This document shows positions 299-6,844 of a DNA stretch of 64,000 nt, in pieces (the stretch's first letter is position 1; each line of letters opens with the position of its first letter). The notes beneath the pieces were generated by a model. The model was given only the letters and a program-made list of their open reading frames with translations, did not search any database and was not told where the DNA came from. The translations under genes and the position numbers were made by a program. This stretch comes from Anaerolineales bacterium. Lineage in GTDB: Bacteria; Chloroflexota; Anaerolineae; Aggregatilineales; UBA2796. Where the stretch lies: positions 1,178,001 to 1,242,000 of the forward strand of contig JABTTZ010000002.1 in NCBI GenBank assembly GCA_015075625.1. The letters are read 5' to 3'.

Positions 299-481
299 AT
301 GGCTACGAAAACTAAGGAATTGAACCGAACAATGCTGCGATTAGGGCAGGAATATGCCGAGCGCTGGGGACATGACTGGCGTTATCAGGGCGCCGAGATC
401 GTCTATTTCAAAGGACACTTCATGATCGTCAAAGGGACGGAAACACTCGCCACGAACCGCAGCGCGGATGTTCTGCACTGA
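299..481 (+). CDS. Small protein of unknown function (60 aa)
   Basis: The ATG at 299 follows a purine-rich ribosome-binding stretch (AAAGGAAAGAGGG). The upstream in-frame extension runs through the hairpin at 232-272 and is unlikely to be coding. The protein is charged, with an N-terminal helix (KELNRTMLRLGQEYAERWG) and a likely beta hairpin (IVYFKGHFMIVKG). No family is recognised. Its 3' end overlaps a helix-turn-helix-like reading frame by a few bases, and the two may once have been one gene. Confidence 0.5.
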   Translation: MATKTKELNRTMLRLGQEYAERWGHDWRYQGAEIVYFKGHFMIVKGTETLATNRSADVLH

Positions 482-639
482 TTGAGGAATATGGCTCAAT
501 TCGCCAAGCGGCGTTGGTCTTGAACGTCGCAGACAACACAGTGAAAGACTTCATGAAAAGGCGCGGGCTACGGGTCGTTTACAGGCGCGTGGCAACCGTG
601 CAACGGGGTGAAGGAATGATTCCCGGTGAGGACAAATGA
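478..639 (+). CDS. Helix-turn-helix-like frame without a standard start
   Basis: From about 478 to the stop at 637-639 the frame reads as a convincing helix-turn-helix: LIEEYGSIRQAALVLNVADN then TVKDFMKRRGLRV, like small DNA-binding domains that start with a 'YGSxRxAA' helix. There is no ATG, GTG or TTG in frame between the upstream stop at 373-375 and the motif, and only a CTG at 478 touches the previous gene's stop. Either it starts at CTG by coupling, or a frameshift near 475-481 split one longer gene (299-639). The helix-turn-helix reading is seen in the sequence; the rest is inference. Confidence 0.35.
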   Translation: MIEEYGSIRQAALVLNVADNTVKDFMKRRGLRVVYRRVATVQRGEGMIPGEDK

Positions 640-640
640 G

Positions 641-697
641 CCGCCACAAGCCCGCAAAACGAAGTTAGGGTGAGGGCGTTTTGTGGGCTTGCGGGGG
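641..697 (+). repeat. Long imperfect hairpin related to the one at 232
   Basis: Two ~21-base arms (641-661 and 677-697) pair with only a few mismatches around a GTTAGGGTGAGGG loop. The arms share the ACAAGCCC / GGGCTT.. theme and the GGTGAGGG loop with the hairpin at 232-272. It lies 1 base after the helix-turn-helix frame, so it is a terminator-like or processing element repeated within the mobile element. Confidence 0.45.
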
Positions 698-715
698 CGC
701 ATTTGAGGGATAACC

Positions 716-907
716 GTGACGGGCAACCTTAACAAATCAGGCATAGTCAAAGCACACCTACGGGGCAATGGGCTACTTCTTGAACTGAATTACTGGCAAG
801 GATCGCGGCGAGGACAACCCGATAGCACCCCACTAGTCGGTCATCATGTGAAAGGGAAAGCAGATTATGAACCAAGAGTTACCCGATACAACCGAAAAGG
901 AAATTGA
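716..907 (+). CDS. Possible small ORF (63 aa)
   Basis: A GTG at 716 follows GAGGGA at good spacing. The product is basic with no recognised motif (starts MTGNLNKSGIVKAHLRGNG). It overlaps the better-supported gene at 867 by 41 bases, which argues against it being real. Listed because the start signal is good and the space is otherwise empty. Confidence 0.25.
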   Translation: MTGNLNKSGIVKAHLRGNGLLLELNYWQGSRRGQPDSTPLVGHHVKGKADYEPRVTRYNRKGN

Positions 908-1106
908 GGAGGCGATGCCTGACACTGAGATTCATTTAGAATGGGAGTATCGGGGCTACACCTTCACACAACACTACGAGGAAGGCGATCCAGTCCATAC
1001 GCCCCCATCCGCCCGGCGGCGAGCGGCGGCGGCGGCGGCGTCCATTGCCGATCAATATGGACTTGTGTTATTTCGCCCGCCGCGCCGGAATGGACGCGAG
1101 GAATGA
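867..1106 (+). CDS. Small acidic protein of unknown function (79 aa)
   Basis: The ATG at 867 follows a GAAAGGGAAA ribosome-binding stretch. The N-terminal half is acidic (TTEKEIEEAMPDTEIHLEWE); the C-terminal half has an alanine run encoded by a GCG-rich tract (1019-1040) and ends in a basic tail. It overlaps the next gene as ATGA at 1103. No family is recognised. Its position in a chain of coupled small genes suggests it belongs to the element's own operon. Confidence 0.5.
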   Translation: MNQELPDTTEKEIEEAMPDTEIHLEWEYRGYTFTQHYEEGDPVHTPPSARRRAAAAAASIADQYGLVLFRPPRRNGREE

Positions 1107-1282
1107 TATTACCACAAATCATACTAACTCCGCTCATTGTCAGCCTAGGTATTACGCTTGGACTAATAATCGTCTCACGCATTTTCTCGGTATTCAGAAA
1201 GGCGTTCAGCGAGATGCCTAAGCGTGATCACTGGTTCACCGAAGACGGTGATGGGGGAGATCGATCTTCCGATAGAGATTGA
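1103..1282 (+). CDS. Small single-span membrane protein (59 aa)
   Basis: The ATG at 1103 overlaps the previous stop (ATGA). The protein begins with about 25 hydrophobic residues (MILPQIILTPLIVSLGITLG onward), followed by a basic stretch (SRIFSVFRKAF) and an acidic, Asp/Gly-rich tail. This is the layout of a one-helix membrane protein with a cytoplasmic tail. No family is recognised. It is the second of three tiny membrane genes in the element. Confidence 0.5.
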   Translation: MILPQIILTPLIVSLGITLGLIIVSRIFSVFRKAFSEMPKRDHWFTEDGDGGDRSSDRD

Positions 1283-1382
1283 TTTCGGAGAGGAAAAACC
1301 CAAACGGACGCAATGGCAACTTGTCAACAGAGCGTCACTTCAGGCAAGAAGACCGCTTTCATTTCCCTGTGAATTGGGTTAG
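1251..1382 (+). CDS. Possible small cytoplasmic ORF (43 aa)
   Basis: An ATG at 1251 opens a 43-residue frame whose start is MGEIDLPIEIDFGEEKPKRT. It overlaps the end of the previous gene by 32 bases in another frame and stops 8 bases before the exonuclease start. The composition looks coding (an acidic head, then Lys/Arg and polar residues), but the ribosome-binding site is weak and no family is recognised. A TTG-started frame over the same bases (1279-1488) runs into the exonuclease gene and is less likely. Confidence 0.35.
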   Translation: MGEIDLPIEIDFGEEKPKRTQWQLVNRASLQARRPLSFPCELG

Positions 1383-1390
1383 GAGGATTG

Positions 1391-1948
1391 ATGTCACTGG
1401 AAAGTTTGAAACTCTTGTGGGATGCACAAAATTTCGTCGTTCTGGACACAGAGACGACGGGGTTGGGTTGGGGTGCAGAAATTGTTGAGATCGCAATCAT
1501 AGACTACCGGGGAAACATCCTCCTCAATGGCCGTATACGCCCACAGAACGGAATCCCTGAGGACGCCGCACGAATTCACGGAATCAGGGATAAGGATGTC
1601 TCTGATTGCCCGTCGTGGCAGAAAATTTGTGGTGAGGTGAAGGACGCGCTGATAGATCGCGATGTGATCATTTACAACGCCAAATACGATGTAGAGATGC
1701 TGCAATCCTCCGATATGGTCTGCGGACTCAAAAACGGGTGGATCAGCATAGCGCACTATGAATGTGCGATGTTGGGATACGCAGAATTCAGAGGCGATTG
1801 GAACCACTATCACCGAAATTATCGATGGCACAAGCTGACTGAGGCAATAAGCCAGATGGGATTGCCACCGATCCACGCCCATTCCGCGCTTGGCGATTGC
1901 CAGATGACCCTCTCGCTCATGAACCATATTTTCGGAGATCACTCATGA
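1391..1948 (+). CDS. DnaQ-like 3'-5' exonuclease (DEDDh)
   Basis: A 185-residue protein with all three motifs of the DnaQ/RNase T exonuclease fold: ExoI VVLDTETTGLG near residue 17, ExoII IIYNAKYDVEML near residue 94, and ExoIII HSALGDCQMT near residue 166, giving the DEDDh set. It should remove nucleotides from 3' DNA ends with two metal ions, in proofreading, repair or processing of the element's DNA. The ATG at 1391 is chosen over an in-frame TTG one codon earlier because AGGAGG lies just upstream. It is a single-domain, stand-alone exonuclease of the length seen on plasmids and phages. Its place directly before small element genes suggests replication or maintenance of the element and not chromosomal proofreading. 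Confidence 0.85.
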   Translation: MSLESLKLLWDAQNFVVLDTETTGLGWGAEIVEIAIIDYRGNILLNGRIRPQNGIPEDAARIHGIRDKDVSDCPSWQKICGEVKDALIDRDVIIYNAKYDVEMLQSSDMVCGLKNGWISIAHYECAMLGYAEFRGDWNHYHRNYRWHKLTEAISQMGLPPIHAHSALGDCQMTLSLMNHIFGDHS

Positions 1949-1973
1949 AACCCCAAGAGCTGATGCTACATCG

Positions 1974-2051
1974 ATGCTCACCTTAATCGTATGGTGGATC
2001 GGCTTGAACGTCTTTTTGTTGGTTTGGTTCTGGACAGTATCAGATCGTTGA
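1974..2051 (+). CDS. Micro-ORF: 25-aa hydrophobic peptide
   Basis: The ATG at 1974 starts a 25-residue peptide (MLTLIVWWIGLNVFLLVWFW, then TVSDR) that is almost entirely one Trp-rich membrane helix with a polar end. There is no strong ribosome-binding site. It lies between the exonuclease and the gene at 2063, out of frame with both. The composition is unlikely to be chance, and it matches the other one-helix peptides of the element. Function unknown. Confidence 0.4.
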   Translation: MLTLIVWWIGLNVFLLVWFWTVSDR

Positions 2052-2062
2052 ATGGAGGAAAT

Positions 2063-2362
2063 ATGGCAATCGAAATTCTTTTACTACCCACATTTCGGAA
2101 AATGTCGCATCACGAAACCATCACGGCGACACTCGATCCGGTGCTTGACGAACGTTTTCAAGAGTCTATCCAAATTCGGGCAACCGAACTGAGTGATCGG
2201 CTTGAATCCGGGTGGCAGATCATCCATACCTCCCAATGTATGGATGCCACATCGGTGAACGTTGTATTTGTCCTGTATCGTGCGGATGCAAGCCTTGAAC
2301 TGGACGAAGTTCTTTTGCTGAACAGGGTATCGGAGATGGCAACATTGGAGGAGGAAATATGA
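2063..2362 (+). CDS. Small conserved-looking protein of unknown function (99 aa)
   Basis: The ATG at 2063 is preceded by TGGAGG at good spacing; an in-frame GTG at 1991 would overlap the micro-ORF and is less likely. The protein starts MAIEILLLPTFRKM and has mixed alpha/beta character with a central RATELSDRLESGWQIIHTS segment, ending in a Leu/Glu-rich helix. No domain is recognised. Its stop overlaps the start of the next gene (ATGA), so both are expected from one message. Confidence 0.55.
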   Translation: MAIEILLLPTFRKMSHHETITATLDPVLDERFQESIQIRATELSDRLESGWQIIHTSQCMDATSVNVVFVLYRADASLELDEVLLLNRVSEMATLEEEI

Positions 2363-2493
2363 ACCATACCCGCTGCCCGCGTTGTGGGAAGTTTTCCCGC
2401 AACTTGGATGTTCATCACGATCCGCCCCGATCTGCGGGCGGCGCGGGGGACAACGCACCGCCGCAAACGAGGCGAATTGGCGACGAAATCTGA
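2359..2493 (+). CDS. Short zinc-ribbon-like peptide (44 aa)
   Basis: The ATG at 2359 overlaps the previous stop and follows GGAGGAGGAAAT, a strong ribosome-binding site inside the upstream gene. It encodes CPRCGKF at residues 6-12 and a His pair (VHH) near residue 18, enough for one small zinc-binding knuckle, followed by a disordered Gly/Pro/Arg tail. Such peptides are usually nucleic-acid binding or partner-binding. Function is otherwise unknown. Confidence 0.45.
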   Translation: MNHTRCPRCGKFSRNLDVHHDPPRSAGGAGDNAPPQTRRIGDEI

Positions 2494-2580
2494 AACAATT
2501 CCGCGCCCAAAAACAACAAACTGAAAACTAGCACAGAACAACCGCCCGGTGCGCAAACGCCGGGCAACCAAGGAAACACT

Positions 2581-3951
2581 ATGACTGATTATACCACATC
2601 ATCAAATCCCGACGGGGAGTTACCCCTCGCAGATGAACGTGCTGTGAGCAGCCTCTTAGGATTTGTGGACTCCTACCCAGAAGATTTATACGTAAAAGTG
2701 TACCCCCGGCGCTTGCGCGATCTTATTCGGGGGATCGTCGCCACCGAACGGGCGAAGGGACATAGGAAATTCAAGGTGACGCGGGCAATGATCGCAGCGT
2801 TGGTTCTCTTGGGTTTTCGTGCCGACAAAAACGGCGAGTGTCACCCGGGATCGTGGACAAGCGCGGCAGAGGTGGGACTTGCCAGCGCGTCGGGCAGCCG
2901 CTACATGTATAAGCGCCTGAGAAGCGCTGGACTGGTATCTTGGGATTTTGACCACAACAAACGGAGTCGGCGCTTTCACGTTCCCCGAAATATCTTTGTT
3001 TTCGGGGTTGATTCTTACCGCGATCAAAACTTCGCTACAGGATCAGATCAAAACTTCGCTACAGGGTCACGACAAAACTTCGACGCAAACAAGAGTCATG
3101 GATTCAAGAACAAGAGTCATGAAGATGTGAACCCAACCAACCATGCGCGTAGCGCACTCCCTGTAGAAACCAATGCAGAAATTCAATCCCAAACCTACAC
3201 CCGCACGCAGGAAGTCTTATATCGCAAACTGAGACAGATCGGCGTCACCAATAAAGAATCGGCGATCATCGCCGTCCAGTACCACCCCCAAACCATCGAG
3301 TCAGCGATCACCGACGCAAACAGACTCGATCAGCAGGGCAAAATCAAATCATCAGTGGGCGCGTGGGTGCGGGCGACGGTTGCCCGCCGCGCCGGGGGTC
3401 AGCCGTTGTGGTATGACCTTGCTGGGCAATCCGCCGCCCGTCAACTGATGCAACTCATCCCCCTCACATCCCCTTCAACACCCTCTCTCACGACGCCCCC
3501 CGCGCCGCAATCAATGCACCCCTCAAGCGCAACCCCATCAAAATCCTCATCAGACCCCCTCATGAGCGCCCGCTACAAAGTGTTCGTTTCACTCAAACAA
3601 GCCGGAGTCCGTGCCACAGAAGCCGACCTTATCGCTCAACAGTGGACGCCTGAGGATGTGACTCAGGTGATCAACGAATCGGAGCGCGGGCAGGTCGCCA
3701 ACCGGGGCGCGTGGATTCGGCGCGTCCTGGAGCGCCGTTCGGGTCGTGAGATCGCCTACCCCTCGCCGTCCGAAATCATGAGACGACAGGCGGTGTTGGT
3801 GTCGATTGCAGACATGCCCACGCCCAACCCCTACCTCGCCAACCCGTATGACCGCTATGAGGCTGACGAGGACGATCAAGCCGAACGCCGGGCGATGCTC
3901 TTATGGGCAAACGGATTCGGTGAGCAGCCGGGCATGGACGCTGCGGACTAA
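2581..3951 (+). CDS. Plasmid/phage-type replication or DNA-binding protein with winged helix
   Basis: A 456-residue protein. Residues ~55-140 (from KFKVTRAMIAALVLLGF to the basic KRSRRFHVPRN) look like a winged helix-turn-helix. A short repeat (QNFATGS, DQNFATGS, RQNF) follows near residue 147. Two copies of a ~60-residue helical module then occupy ~214-276 and ~331-395; both have an aliphatic 'LxQxGV' start and a GAWVRATVARR / GAWIRRVLERR end. This layout is common in replication-associated helix-turn-helix proteins of plasmids and prophages, so I infer a role in starting element replication. The DNA between the modules is Pro/Ser/Thr-rich linker. The start at 2581 follows AAGGAAACACT. A GCCCGG/CCGGGC hairpin (2544-2565) lies 15 bases upstream and might be a control site. 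The replication role is inference from layout and neighbours. Confidence 0.55.
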   Translation: MTDYTTSSNPDGELPLADERAVSSLLGFVDSYPEDLYVKVYPRRLRDLIRGIVATERAKGHRKFKVTRAMIAALVLLGFRADKNGECHPGSWTSAAEVGLASASGSRYMYKRLRSAGLVSWDFDHNKRSRRFHVPRNIFVFGVDSYRDQNFATGSDQNFATGSRQNFDANKSHGFKNKSHEDVNPTNHARSALPVETNAEIQSQTYTRTQEVLYRKLRQIGVTNKESAIIAVQYHPQTIESAITDANRLDQQGKIKSSVGAWVRATVARRAGGQPLWYDLAGQSAARQLMQLIPLTSPSTPSLTTPPAPQSMHPSSATPSKSSSDPLMSARYKVFVSLKQAGVRATEADLIAQQWTPEDVTQVINESERGQVANRGAWIRRVLERRSGREIAYPSPSEIMRRQAVLVSIADMPTPNPYLANPYDRYEADEDDQAERRAMLLWANGFGEQPGMDAAD

Positions 3952-4010
3952 ACAAACGAGGGACGTATGAAAGGGATCAACCCGGTCACTCTACGCCTTA
4001 TGGCGCGGCG

Positions 4011-4050
4011 TGTCACAGATTGTCGGATAGTGTCACAGGATATGACAGGA
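4011..4050 (+). repeat. Four 10-bp phased repeats before parM (candidate parC/operator)
   Basis: Four consecutive 10-base units begin at 4011, 4021, 4031 and 4041: TGTCACAGAT, TGTCGGATAG, TGTCACAGGA, TATGACAGGA. Three start TGTC, and the spacing is one DNA turn. They end within the ribosome-binding region of the parM start chosen here (4060). ParR proteins bind short direct repeats upstream of parM in known ParMRC systems. The same bases can also be read as coding if parM starts at 3967. Confidence 0.45.
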
Positions 4051-4059
4051 GTAATCGAA

Positions 4060-5088
4060 ATGGGCAAGAAACAGACGGCAGCCAGAACCCTTCCCCATCC
4101 TACCGAAATTCAGGCTATCAGCCTTGATCTCGGAAATGGGTATTGCAACCTCATGGCAGATGGGGGCATATCAGCGGATTGGCGCTCCGTTCAGGGGCGG
4201 CTATCAGACGCCACTCGCTTCAACGATCTCCCATTTGATGACGTGATCAATATCAGCGGCGTATGGTGGGCGTTCGGAGCGGGGGCTTATACCTACGCTG
4301 CACGCTCCCTAGAAGACTTCCCCGCCACGAATCGTTACTTCAGCGAATGGTACAAGCGCCTCTTCACCTATGCTCTTCATCGCGCCTATGGGGTGCGGCT
4401 AGGCGAGGGCATTTTCTACCCCCGCGTGGTTTTGTCGATCCCGGCGGGCATTTTTGCCAATGAAGATGTCGTGCAGCGGGTTAAGGAATCCCTTGCGGGC
4501 GATTACCAGATCGGTACGACGCGGGGATCGGAACTCAGAGTAAAAATCGAAGATGGGAATCTCCAAATCATCCCAGAGGGTGCGGGGTCATACATTGCCA
4601 CTGCAACCCAAAATCAGATCGTGCAATCGGGATTGTGGTACGTGGGGGATGGGGGCTACCTCACTTTTGACGTGATCGCCTTTCGTGACGGCGACTACGC
4701 ACCAGATTTGTCGGTGAGCGACGCGGCGGCGGGAATGCGATATGTTGCAGCGGCGGTTTCGCGCAAGCTGCACGCGGCGGCGGGTAACGAGGTTCGCCCA
4801 GAAGACATTGATCCCTACCTCACCTGCGACGCGATCACTATCAACGGACGGGCATATCCCATCGGCGAACACCGGGCGACGGCGATCTGCCAATTGGTAG
4901 AACGAGTCGCCGGATTCATCACCCGTAGCATGTCCGGGCAAAACTTGACAGGGATCATCCTTACAGGCGGTGGTGCTGAGGTCTTGCGAACGGGCTTGGA
5001 GCAAGCCTTAGTACCCCTCACGGTGATCGTCGCCCCAAACCCACGCCGTGCCAACGTCTTGGGCGGTTTCGCCTTGATCGGAGGCTGA
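4060..5088 (+). CDS. parM: ParM-like actin-family ATPase (plasmid segregation)
   Basis: The chosen start at 4060 gives 342 residues, usual for ParM/Alp proteins. Actin-fold signatures are present: phosphate-1 loop ISLDLGNGYCNLM near residue 20, phosphate-2 loop YVGDGGYLTFDVIAF near 195, and the adenosine motif GIILTGGGAEVL near 300. Actin-like ATPases of this type form filaments that push plasmid copies apart, linked to DNA through ParR bound at parC. AGGAG lies 8 bases before the ATG at 4060. An in-frame ATG at 3967 also has a GAGGGA site but would add 31 residues encoded by the phased repeats. The next gene down is ParR-like, as in the parMR order. Distant relatives include archaeal/phage actin homologues; the segregation role rests on the pair. 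Confidence 0.75.
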   Translation: MGKKQTAARTLPHPTEIQAISLDLGNGYCNLMADGGISADWRSVQGRLSDATRFNDLPFDDVINISGVWWAFGAGAYTYAARSLEDFPATNRYFSEWYKRLFTYALHRAYGVRLGEGIFYPRVVLSIPAGIFANEDVVQRVKESLAGDYQIGTTRGSELRVKIEDGNLQIIPEGAGSYIATATQNQIVQSGLWYVGDGGYLTFDVIAFRDGDYAPDLSVSDAAAGMRYVAAAVSRKLHAAAGNEVRPEDIDPYLTCDAITINGRAYPIGEHRATAICQLVERVAGFITRSMSGQNLTGIILTGGGAEVLRTGLEQALVPLTVIVAPNPRRANVLGGFALIGG

Positions 5089-5137
5089 TCATGATCCAGA
5101 CAGAAGTTCGGACACCACGATGGACGAGGAGGTAATG

Positions 5138-5395
5138 ATGCTGAAACATTTTGGAGTCTATCTGAAAGATGAGGTAGACGCGGACTTGATTAAGTACCTC
5201 GCAGCGGCGGCGAAAGCTAACCGCGTCGGCGAAACCATCCGAGCAGCATTGCGGGCATACATGGGCGGGCAACGGGCGGCGGTAATCTCCCCAACGGTGA
5301 ACGCCGCCACCCCCGCTCCGGCGATGATCGCACCACCGTTGCCCGCGAGCGGCGAGGATGTGGTGAGTAAAGCGAAACGAGCGTTTTTCAAGTAA
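5138..5395 (+). CDS. parR: ParR-like ribbon-helix-helix adaptor (85 aa)
   Basis: The protein is small, with an N-terminal DNA-binding-like part (MLKHFGVYLKDEVDADLIKY then AAAAKANRVGETIRAALRAY), which reads as a ribbon-helix-helix or short helical domain, and a Pro/Ala-rich linker ending in a basic tail (VVSKAKRAFFK). ParR adaptors have this layout: a DNA-binding N-terminus and a flexible C-terminus that contacts the ParM filament. GAGGAGG lies 5 bases before the ATG at 5138, which decides the start; ATG 5135 would be too close. It follows parM by 49 bases, which hold a 14-codon leader frame (5091-5135). Assignment is by position and layout; sequence similarity to named ParR proteins was not tested. 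Confidence 0.55.
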   Translation: MLKHFGVYLKDEVDADLIKYLAAAAKANRVGETIRAALRAYMGGQRAAVISPTVNAATPAPAMIAPPLPASGEDVVSKAKRAFFK

Positions 5396-5398
5396 GCC

Positions 5399-6337
5399 AT
5401 GCTCACCCTCCAAACGGCGGTAGACGAATTTCAGGTGGCGAACGCAGCGGATGGGTTAAAGACCGCCACCATTGCATGGTATCGCGTTCGTCTCTCAAAA
5501 TTCGTATCGCATGTGGGAGGTGATTTTCACATTCAGGAGGTGACAACAAGCATGATAAGGGAATGGATCATCGTCTTGCGCGGGCGGGAAAAACTCTCAG
5601 CCGGGCATGGGTCGGGGCAAGTGAAAATTCATACCTTGCACGGTTATATGAGAGCATTGCGCCGCTTTTGGCGGTGGGCATGTTTGGAATATGACATTGC
5701 CCAGAACCCGATGGATCGGGTGAGGCTGCCCCAACGTCCGCGCCCTGAACCAAAAGCAATCTCTCTGGATGACTTACGGGCGATTTTCAATGCCTGCGAT
5801 GACAGTCCAGAAGGTCTCCGTGACCGGGCGCTCATCGCCTTTCTGTGCGATACAGGCTGCCGAGCGGGTGGGCTGCTGGGACTCACCGTTGAGGATTGCG
5901 ATCTGCAACACCTACGGGCGCGGGTTGTAGAGAAAGGGGATCGCCCCCGCATCGTGCCGTTCAGCACGTTCACCGCTTACCACCTCATCAAGTGGTTTGA
6001 GATGCGCCCTGCTGGAGGCGCTGTATTTTGCAGCCTGAAAAAGCGTCGGGGGCAGCCCCTAAGCTATTCGGGTCTTGCAAAGATTCTAGGACGGCTCAAA
6101 GAAAAGGCGGGTGTACAGGGGCGTGTAAACCCACACAGTTTCCGGCATGGGTTTGCCCGCGAATATGTGAGGAATGGGGGTGATCTGTCCTCATTGAGTA
6201 GGTTATTGGGGCATAGCGGGATTGGTGTCACAGCGGACTATTACGCGGTGTTCACCGAACCTGAACTTGCCGAATTCCATGCCAAATTTAGCCCGATAAG
6301 GAGTCTCAGTGAACACCATAGACCAGATAGCCCTTGA
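5399..6337 (+). CDS. Tyrosine recombinase/integrase (XerC/D-like)
   Basis: A 312-residue tyrosine recombinase. The N-terminal SAM-like core-binding domain (residues ~1-105) ends in RRFWRWACLEYDIAQNPMDR. The catalytic domain carries Arg155 (DTGCRAGGLL), Lys179 (VVEKGDRPR), His246 and Arg249 (HSFRH), His272 (LLGHS) and the nucleophile Tyr281 (ADYYAVF), so the active site is complete. It cuts and joins DNA through a covalent 3'-phosphotyrosine. It starts 3 bases after parR, so it may be co-transcribed with it. It lies about 440 bases from a tRNA-Cys gene, a common target of such enzymes, and probably integrates or resolves the element. A plasmid-dimer resolvase role is the alternative. Confidence 0.9.
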   Translation: MLTLQTAVDEFQVANAADGLKTATIAWYRVRLSKFVSHVGGDFHIQEVTTSMIREWIIVLRGREKLSAGHGSGQVKIHTLHGYMRALRRFWRWACLEYDIAQNPMDRVRLPQRPRPEPKAISLDDLRAIFNACDDSPEGLRDRALIAFLCDTGCRAGGLLGLTVEDCDLQHLRARVVEKGDRPRIVPFSTFTAYHLIKWFEMRPAGGAVFCSLKKRRGQPLSYSGLAKILGRLKEKAGVQGRVNPHSFRHGFAREYVRNGGDLSSLSRLLGHSGIGVTADYYAVFTEPELAEFHAKFSPIRSLSEHHRPDSP

Positions 6338-6533: not shown

Positions 6534-6742
6534 CCATAGAAACTGTGTGTTATGTCTGCGGTGTGGAGATGTTGTGCATAAATGGTCTATGTCCAGAGTG
6601 TACATTGCGGGAATTTATAGACCCCGGACACGCCTTTGCCGCTACCTTTGGATCGCTTACCCCCCTCCCCGAAAGGGATGACGACAAAGGGGATGATATT
6701 GACAAAGGGGATGATATTGACAAAGAGAAGGAAGGGGCTTAA
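6530..6742 (+). CDS. Small protein with a four-cysteine knuckle (70 aa)
   Basis: The ATG at 6530 overlaps the previous stop. Residues 7-25 contain CYVCGVEMLCINGLCPEC, a treble Cys arrangement likely to bind one zinc. The C-terminus is strongly acidic and repetitive (DDDKGDDIDKGDDIDKEKEG), encoded by an 18-bp tandem repeat at 6683-6725. It is the last gene before the tRNA, hence probably the last gene of the element. Function unknown. Confidence 0.5.
   Translation: MTIETVCYVCGVEMLCINGLCPECTLREFIDPGHAFAATFGSLTPLPERDDDKGDDIDKGDDIDKEKEGA
6683..6725 (+). repeat. 18-bp tandem repeat inside the terminal small gene
   Basis: The unit GACAAAGGGGATGATATT occurs twice in a row (6683-6700, 6701-6718) and is followed by seven bases of a third copy. 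Being a multiple of three, it only changes the number of D-K-G-D-D-I repeats, so copy number could vary without breaking the frame. Confidence 0.8.
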
Positions 6743-6772
6743 AATCCCATGACGTACCTGAAAAGGCTGCAC

Positions 6773-6844
6773 GGCGTCGTCGCCAAGTGGTAAGGCAAGG
6801 GTCTGCAAAACCCTTATTCGTGGGTTCGAATCCCACCGACGCCT
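6773..6844 (+). tRNA. tRNA-Cys (anticodon GCA)
   Basis: A 72-base cloverleaf. The acceptor stem GGCGTCG (6773-6779) pairs perfectly with CGACGCC (6837-6843), and the discriminator is T. The anticodon arm AGGGT-CTGCAAA-ACCCT gives anticodon GCA. The T arm contains GTGGG-TTCGAAT-CCCAC. CCA is not encoded. The gene is complete and lies 30 bases after the last small gene of the presumed integrated element, so it is the likely integration landmark. Confidence 0.95.

Follow-up and report, generated by a model that had tools for sequence, protein, structure and literature searches.

The window, as we call the whole 64,000-nucleotide stretch of DNA analysed here, carries on its plus strand a ParM-like actin gene (4060-5088), followed by the gene for a 91-aa ParR-like protein (5120-5395; 85 aa from start 5138) and by that for a tyrosine integrase (5399-6337; PF00589, E 3e-32; PHROG 1). 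Beyond the integrase, repeat comparison identified a 94-bp attachment repeat (6716-6809) that includes the 5′ half of a tRNA-Cys gene (6773-6844). Since an identical copy lies 20.3 kb leftward (G000:C2:1164404-1164497), the repeat array that concerns us here, just before the ParM-like gene, sits inside a 20.4-kb integrated element. A third attachment-like copy, 98% alike and 1.2 kb past the left end of the element (G000:C2:1163188-1163281), is perhaps the relic of an earlier insertion. The element contains helix-turn-helix (HTH) genes and may be virus-like; its left part (locus L011, G000:C2:1162001-1181600) encodes a fusion of an FtsK-type ATPase with a phosphoribosyltransferase domain, a laminin-G protein and a product similar to tape-measure proteins (PHROG 58, E 6e-7). 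On the other side of the array, an open reading frame on the plus strand (2581-3951) encodes a 456-aa protein of unknown family (Pfam and NCBIfam gave none at E ≤ 1). Within this gene, 24-bp direct repeats at 3021-3082 (2.6 copies, TRF score 103) encode DQNFATGS repeats and could be iterons or a linker repeat. The sole contig matched in a genome-contig search, ‘Anaerolineaceae bacterium HKUEN02’, is 100% identical to the window over 477-6063. Its identity ends abruptly at window position 477 (position 2511 of L002), where the flanks differ, as if modules had been exchanged between related elements.

An earlier note on this DNA had named the first gene of the operon parM, and we can uphold this identification: the product matches the PHROG 691 partition protein (E 3e-19) as well as PF21522, a three-sequence profile finds the solved ParMs 6izr and 6ixw (E 2e-8 and 3e-8), and a ParR-like gene follows. 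Residues D54, G56, D228, G230, T233 and G334-336 are invariant in eight ParM sequences. Judged by these comparisons, the gene would provide the ParM actin-like ATPase expected of a type II (ParMRC) partition system. Its reading frame is open from ATG 4060 back to ATG 3967, and on sequence grounds we favour the downstream start. A likely Shine-Dalgarno sequence, AGGAG (4047-4051, plus strand), is situated 8 nt 5′ of ATG 4060, and an extension like 3967-4059 is absent from both of the closely related loci L003 and L004. Further, in 58 of 77 related parM loci (duplicates included) the frame is interrupted by a stop no more than 53 codons from the first nucleotide-binding motif, which leaves no room there for such an extension. 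Protein-level conservation of 3967-4059, which the earlier note had held to speak against a DNA site, was thus not seen.

The product of 5120-5395 is likely, if not proven, to be a ribbon-helix-helix ParR. The structural model that we used, built from 26 sequences (pLDDT 72, pTM 0.42; an earlier three-sequence model had a pLDDT of 58), consists of an extended stretch with no strand assigned in the monomer, two helices (15-26 and 30-42, pLDDT about 90) and then a loose linker leading to a C-terminal helix (72-84), for which the pLDDT is only about 50-63. When a profile of 23 downstream genes from related parM loci was compared with solved structures, the 24 rows returned included the ribbon-helix-helix protein NikR (E 0.002), 2q2k (E 0.011) and 2jd3 StbB (E 0.59); we take 2q2k to be the ParR of pSK41 and 2jd3 that of pB171. 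The top row of this comparison was an unrelated ‘circular tendon repeat protein’ (2e-6) with no stretch passing singly, and many weak rows were unfitting. The protein of the window, together with its counterparts from L003 and L004, aligned to the same profile over 37 columns (60% in hhalign). Searches with the model gave no significant match in Foldseek (best E 3.2) and none worth naming in VIA-align, and Pfam placed no domain on the protein (best E 0.17).

Positions 4011-4050, just before parM on the plus strand, consist of four abutting 10-base units (TGTCACAGAT TGTCGGATAG TGTCACAGGA TATGACAGGA), of which three start with TGTC, as the earlier note had described and as both the sequence and a tandem scan confirm. 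Their mean pairwise identity is 0.60, and in a scan of the whole 64-kb window the array is the sole place where four tandem 10-base units reach at least this value. With periods of 8-13 all counted, seven places reach 0.60, so that the array is rare, not unheard of. In the 250 bp 5′ of parM, none of 100 mononucleotide shuffles matched the array score at period 10 with 3, 4 or 5 units, these being the best rows among the 45 period/unit combinations tried. The three-unit core, TGTCR-N5-TGTCR-N5-TGTCR, has one occurrence in the 4.68-Mb genome. It is the spacing that is unusual; the plain count of TGTC/GACA in the 180 bp 5′ of parM was equalled by 82 of 2000 shuffles and is not strong alone, and the array is not one of the seven places in the window where the same 5-mer recurs exactly, four times or more, within 40 bp. 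Within the 20.4-kb element no further cluster of at least three TGTCA/TGACA within 60 bp was found; another cluster of at least four TGTC in 60 bp does occur elsewhere in the element, which counts against reading the array as a parC.

Closer inspection of the layout changes the description of the repeat: the array is better read as three direct half-sites plus one inverted half-site, with the fourth unit fitting better in the inverted orientation. The direct half-sites are TGTCA (4011-4015), TGTCG with one mismatch (4021-4025) and TGTCA (4031-4035), all on the plus strand, and the minus-strand half-site, which reads TGACA on the plus strand (4043-4047), starts at +32 from the first, an offset that is equal in L003. 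A pentamer repeated at +10 and +20, with at most one mismatch overall, together with an exact inverted copy is present once in the 64 kb when both strands and any inverted offset from +25 to +40 are allowed. With the offset fixed at 32, the layout has one match in L003 (inside L012) and none in L004, L005, L030, L011, L013, L014 or L015. The reading as four equal direct repeats is corrected accordingly. Half-sites three and four form an exact hyphenated palindrome, TGTCA-N7-TGACA (4031-4047), and the last half-site runs into AGGAG 4047-4051. With the likely parM start at 4060, the array overlaps the likely ribosome-binding site. Judged by sequence, these would be the repeats adjoining parM that are expected of the parC of a type II (ParMRC) system.

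The two nearest relatives, L003 (genome G008; ParM 42% identical) and L004 (ParM 30% identical, same genus), have the same order of parM followed by a small gene, and in L004 an integrase-like ORF, recognised by eye, comes directly after it. In L003 an array again abuts the 5′ side of parM (TAACTTATGG TAACTGATGA TAACTGAGGA TAAGTTATGA, identity 0.78), with half-sites TAACT at 0, 10 and 20 and inverted AGTTA at 32, thus with the geometry of the window in different letters. An in-frame TAA lies 6 nt 5′ of the ATG, so the L003 array is not coding. The G008 genome, which is about 85% complete, has the core of this array at a single site, and we therefore rejected membership in a genome-wide TAACTGA repeat family. 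That L003 keeps the layout and not the letters would be expected of a DNA site changing together with its binding protein. The earlier note had proposed to look for units kept while codons drift; what was kept in L003 is the layout, in changed letters and in non-coding sequence, and the HKUEN02 contig, being 100% identical, leaves drift unreadable. L004, the third member of this closest group, has no 10-bp array before parM, which counts against the parC reading. It carries four exact GCACA/TGTGC within 36 bp in another order, the sole such place in its 13.6-kb contig, a pattern that was sought after the fact and was reached by 2 of 2000 shuffles.

Among more distant loci, L092 (G150) has 16 TGTCA/TGACA in both directions over about 150 bp (20-165 bp before the ParM-like gene). 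They share their core with the window array and are a candidate for a large parC. In L094 the repeated unit is TGTCGG, as in the second unit of the window; L093, a relative of both, showed no TGTC enrichment (count reached by 1553 of 2000 shuffles). The window’s own genome encodes another ParM-like protein (L030/L037, G000:C1:305879-306895), accompanied by a ParR-like gene; here the neighbours resemble response-regulator genes by eye and a weaker 10-bp array precedes the ParM-like gene.

Searching with the window’s ParM (P0001) gave matches in 3 of the 11 family genomes (E 1e-3) and in 6 of the 154 order genomes (1e-6), its own genome counted in both, and the one match among 400 genomes sampled from the phylum (1e-10) was that genome itself. 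A three-ParM profile (P0001 entered twice) matched in 6 of 396 genomes of a class sample at 1e-12 and an eight-ParM profile in 49 of 154 genomes of the order at 1e-10. Viral contigs yielded no relative with P0001, the three-ParM alignment (P0001 entered twice) or the L003 ParM, nor did phages with P0001; plasmids gave six distant ParM/StbA matches of 24-27% identity. From part of the eight-ParM-profile rows and the rows of the P0001 and three-ParM searches we sampled 82 parM loci, in 70 of which (duplicates included) a downstream ORF was picked by a rule that missed the known genes in L003 and L030 and took the wrong frame in L004. We removed five duplicates, three loci for which no start had been picked (L087, L093 and L094) and L044, whose start lay too close to the contig end; 73 loci were then counted. 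Arrays of four 10-base units with identity of at least 0.50 were present in 6 of 73 parM upstream stretches and in 12 of 1047 control stretches from the same loci (Fisher 6e-4); at 0.55 or above the numbers were 4 of 73 (window, L003, L030 and L051) and 2 of 1047 (2e-4), leaving 69 of the 73 below this score, and at 0.60 or above 2 of 73 and 0 of 1047 (4e-3). A 5-mer repeated exactly, at least four times within 40 bp, was seen in 5 of 73 against 26 of 2052 controls (Fisher 0.004), and the window is absent from those five owing to its one half-site mismatch. All these Fisher values are rough, as the 73 include many close relatives. Grouped at 70% identity, the ParMs fell into 16 clusters, each represented by a single locus. 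Period 10 scored best in 5 of the 16, and z exceeded 4 in just three, the window, L003 and L005. For the largest cluster, of 54 loci, the representative has no array; L030 and L051 were not cluster representatives. With so few loci and clusters carrying it, the 10-bp array is a feature of a few lineages.

The closest parallel among known systems is srpC, where the srpM gene of an integrative element is preceded by four repeats in direct and inverted orientation. The srpMRC system of the SXT/R391 ICEs shares with our locus a parM-like gene with a small DNA-binding partner downstream, residence on an integrative element, and four short direct and inverted repeats before srpM, near its Shine-Dalgarno sequence (PMC4489591). 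It differs in that srpC has 13-bp repeats in a 251-bp region and in that SrpR, compared here by its published description, is reported there to be without homology to known ParRs (PMC4489591). In pB171 and R1, parC likewise consists of direct repeats (10 bp and 11 bp, respectively) before parM that are bound by a ribbon-helix-helix ParR, which in R1 represses the operon; in R1, however, ten repeats flank the promoter, whereas the window has four half-sites, the last inverted (PMC9426499; PMC5016525). The ParR-bound site of pCW3 parMRC from Clostridium perfringens is described as four direct repeats before parM, as such similar to ours, but the repeats are of 17 bp and plasmid-borne (PMC9426499), and the pSK41 ParR system is given as having 20-bp repeats (PMC5016525; PMC9426499; PMC4489591). 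The TAACTGA repeats of Beggiatoaceae resemble the L003 array in having that heptamer before a start codon; in Beggiatoaceae they are heptamer direct repeats with many sets per genome, in contrast to the period of 10 and the one genome site of L003 (PMC4679880).

We consider it fairly probable that 4011-4047 is a compact parC and operator bound by the ParR-like protein of 5120-5395, with ParR repressing parMR and ParM separating copies of the element. The computations show the array and that it is unique, how the genes are ordered, that L003 repeats the layout with other letters, and to which family the ParM belongs; that ParR binds here, that it represses its own operon and that the element is partitioned we infer from them. 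Mechanistically, ParR dimers would load cooperatively, side by side, on the four half-sites along one DNA face. Bound across the parM ribosome-binding site, ParR would repress parMR expression, and the bound protein would form a seed whose C-terminal tails may contact ParM filaments. ParM would then separate element copies when the element is excised or replicating. Four half-sites are few for a centromere, which counts against the parC part of this reading. Against the reading as a whole speak the absence of a 10-bp array from most sampled parM clusters, the lack of TGTC enrichment in L093, the failure of Foldseek, VIA-align and Pfam to give a significant match for the ParR-like protein, and the missing plus-strand promoter described below.

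The same small number of half-sites would suit a site that acts as an operator only, at which ParR or ParM-ParR represses the operon while the centromere lies elsewhere or no DNA partition takes place. The overlap with the ribosome-binding site, the absence of such arrays from most sampled parM loci and, according to PMC12270681, the possibility that some chromosomal ParMs have other roles all agree with this explanation. We nevertheless regard it as unlikely, if deserving of some weight: the element is without a second TGTCA/TGACA cluster, the relative L092 has a large array at the equivalent place, and the 251-bp srpC region, with its four 13-bp repeats, is reported to have been needed for plasmid stabilisation (PMC4489591). 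A promoter scan found no plus-strand promoter in the window stretch and none in L003. It did return a promoter-like match on the minus strand at 3988-4016 (GTGACA, 17 nt, TAGAGT; 0.2 expected), the first hexamer of which overlaps half-site 1.

This overlap, the HTH genes of the element and the exact palindrome at 4031-4047 could be taken to mean that another regulator, of the host or the element and unconnected with ParR, uses TGTCA-N7-TGACA as a palindromic operator. We find this improbable, because the palindrome leaves half-sites 1 and 2 unexplained and the layout recurs before the L003 parM in other letters; moreover, it occurs at three places in the genome against 3.0 expected, so that no regulon is visible, and a host regulon on it was rejected. 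Very improbable, in our estimation, is that the array is parM coding sequence from 3967, its repeats due to chance or codon constraints. The frame is indeed open from 3967 with a plausible Shine-Dalgarno sequence, and the codon score of 3967-4059, although only at the 8th percentile of true coding stretches, is above 74% of stop-free off-frame stretches, a value that places it in neither class clearly. Yet the stretch containing the array (4009-4059) has a score of -0.11, close to the average of off-frame stretches (-0.14; coding stretches average 0.17), the L003 array lies outside the gene with an in-frame stop just before its ATG, and both the early stops in related loci and the position of AGGAG speak for the start at 4060. 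Finally, TGTCA-CAGGATA-TGACA could pair as an RNA hairpin, and the L003 loop is similar (GAGGATA). We rejected this candidate where folding was no better than in shuffles, namely for the 70-nt window stretch (z 0.41), its 31-nt piece (z -0.25) and the 61-nt L003 stretch (z 0.73); a 26-nt L003 piece, chosen as an inverted repeat, folds at z -5.0 and L004 at z -1.9, and we keep a hairpin at the array as a minor possibility.

Returning to the ParR-bound parC and operator, a broader proposal can be attached to it, which we put forward tentatively and with more doubt than conviction. The locus may represent a minimal 37-bp centromere-operator of fixed layout, in which three direct half-sites follow each other one helical turn apart and an inverted one stands at +32, and whose letters have been exchanged between sister elements. 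With geometry kept while letters are exchanged, partition specificity and incompatibility would evolve by swapping of ParR half-sites, and integrated elements of Chloroflexota might be partitioned as replicating plasmids after excision. In the titles and abstract beginnings of the openly licensed literature, we found no ParMRC centromere in Chloroflexota. If our reading is true, ParMRC segregation with a very small centromere site would operate on integrative elements in a phylum that has been little studied. The sites of the window and L003, equal in geometry and different in letters, would lend themselves readily to testing how the specificity of ParR changes, and sites of this kind could aid the recognition of elements that replicate outside the chromosome.
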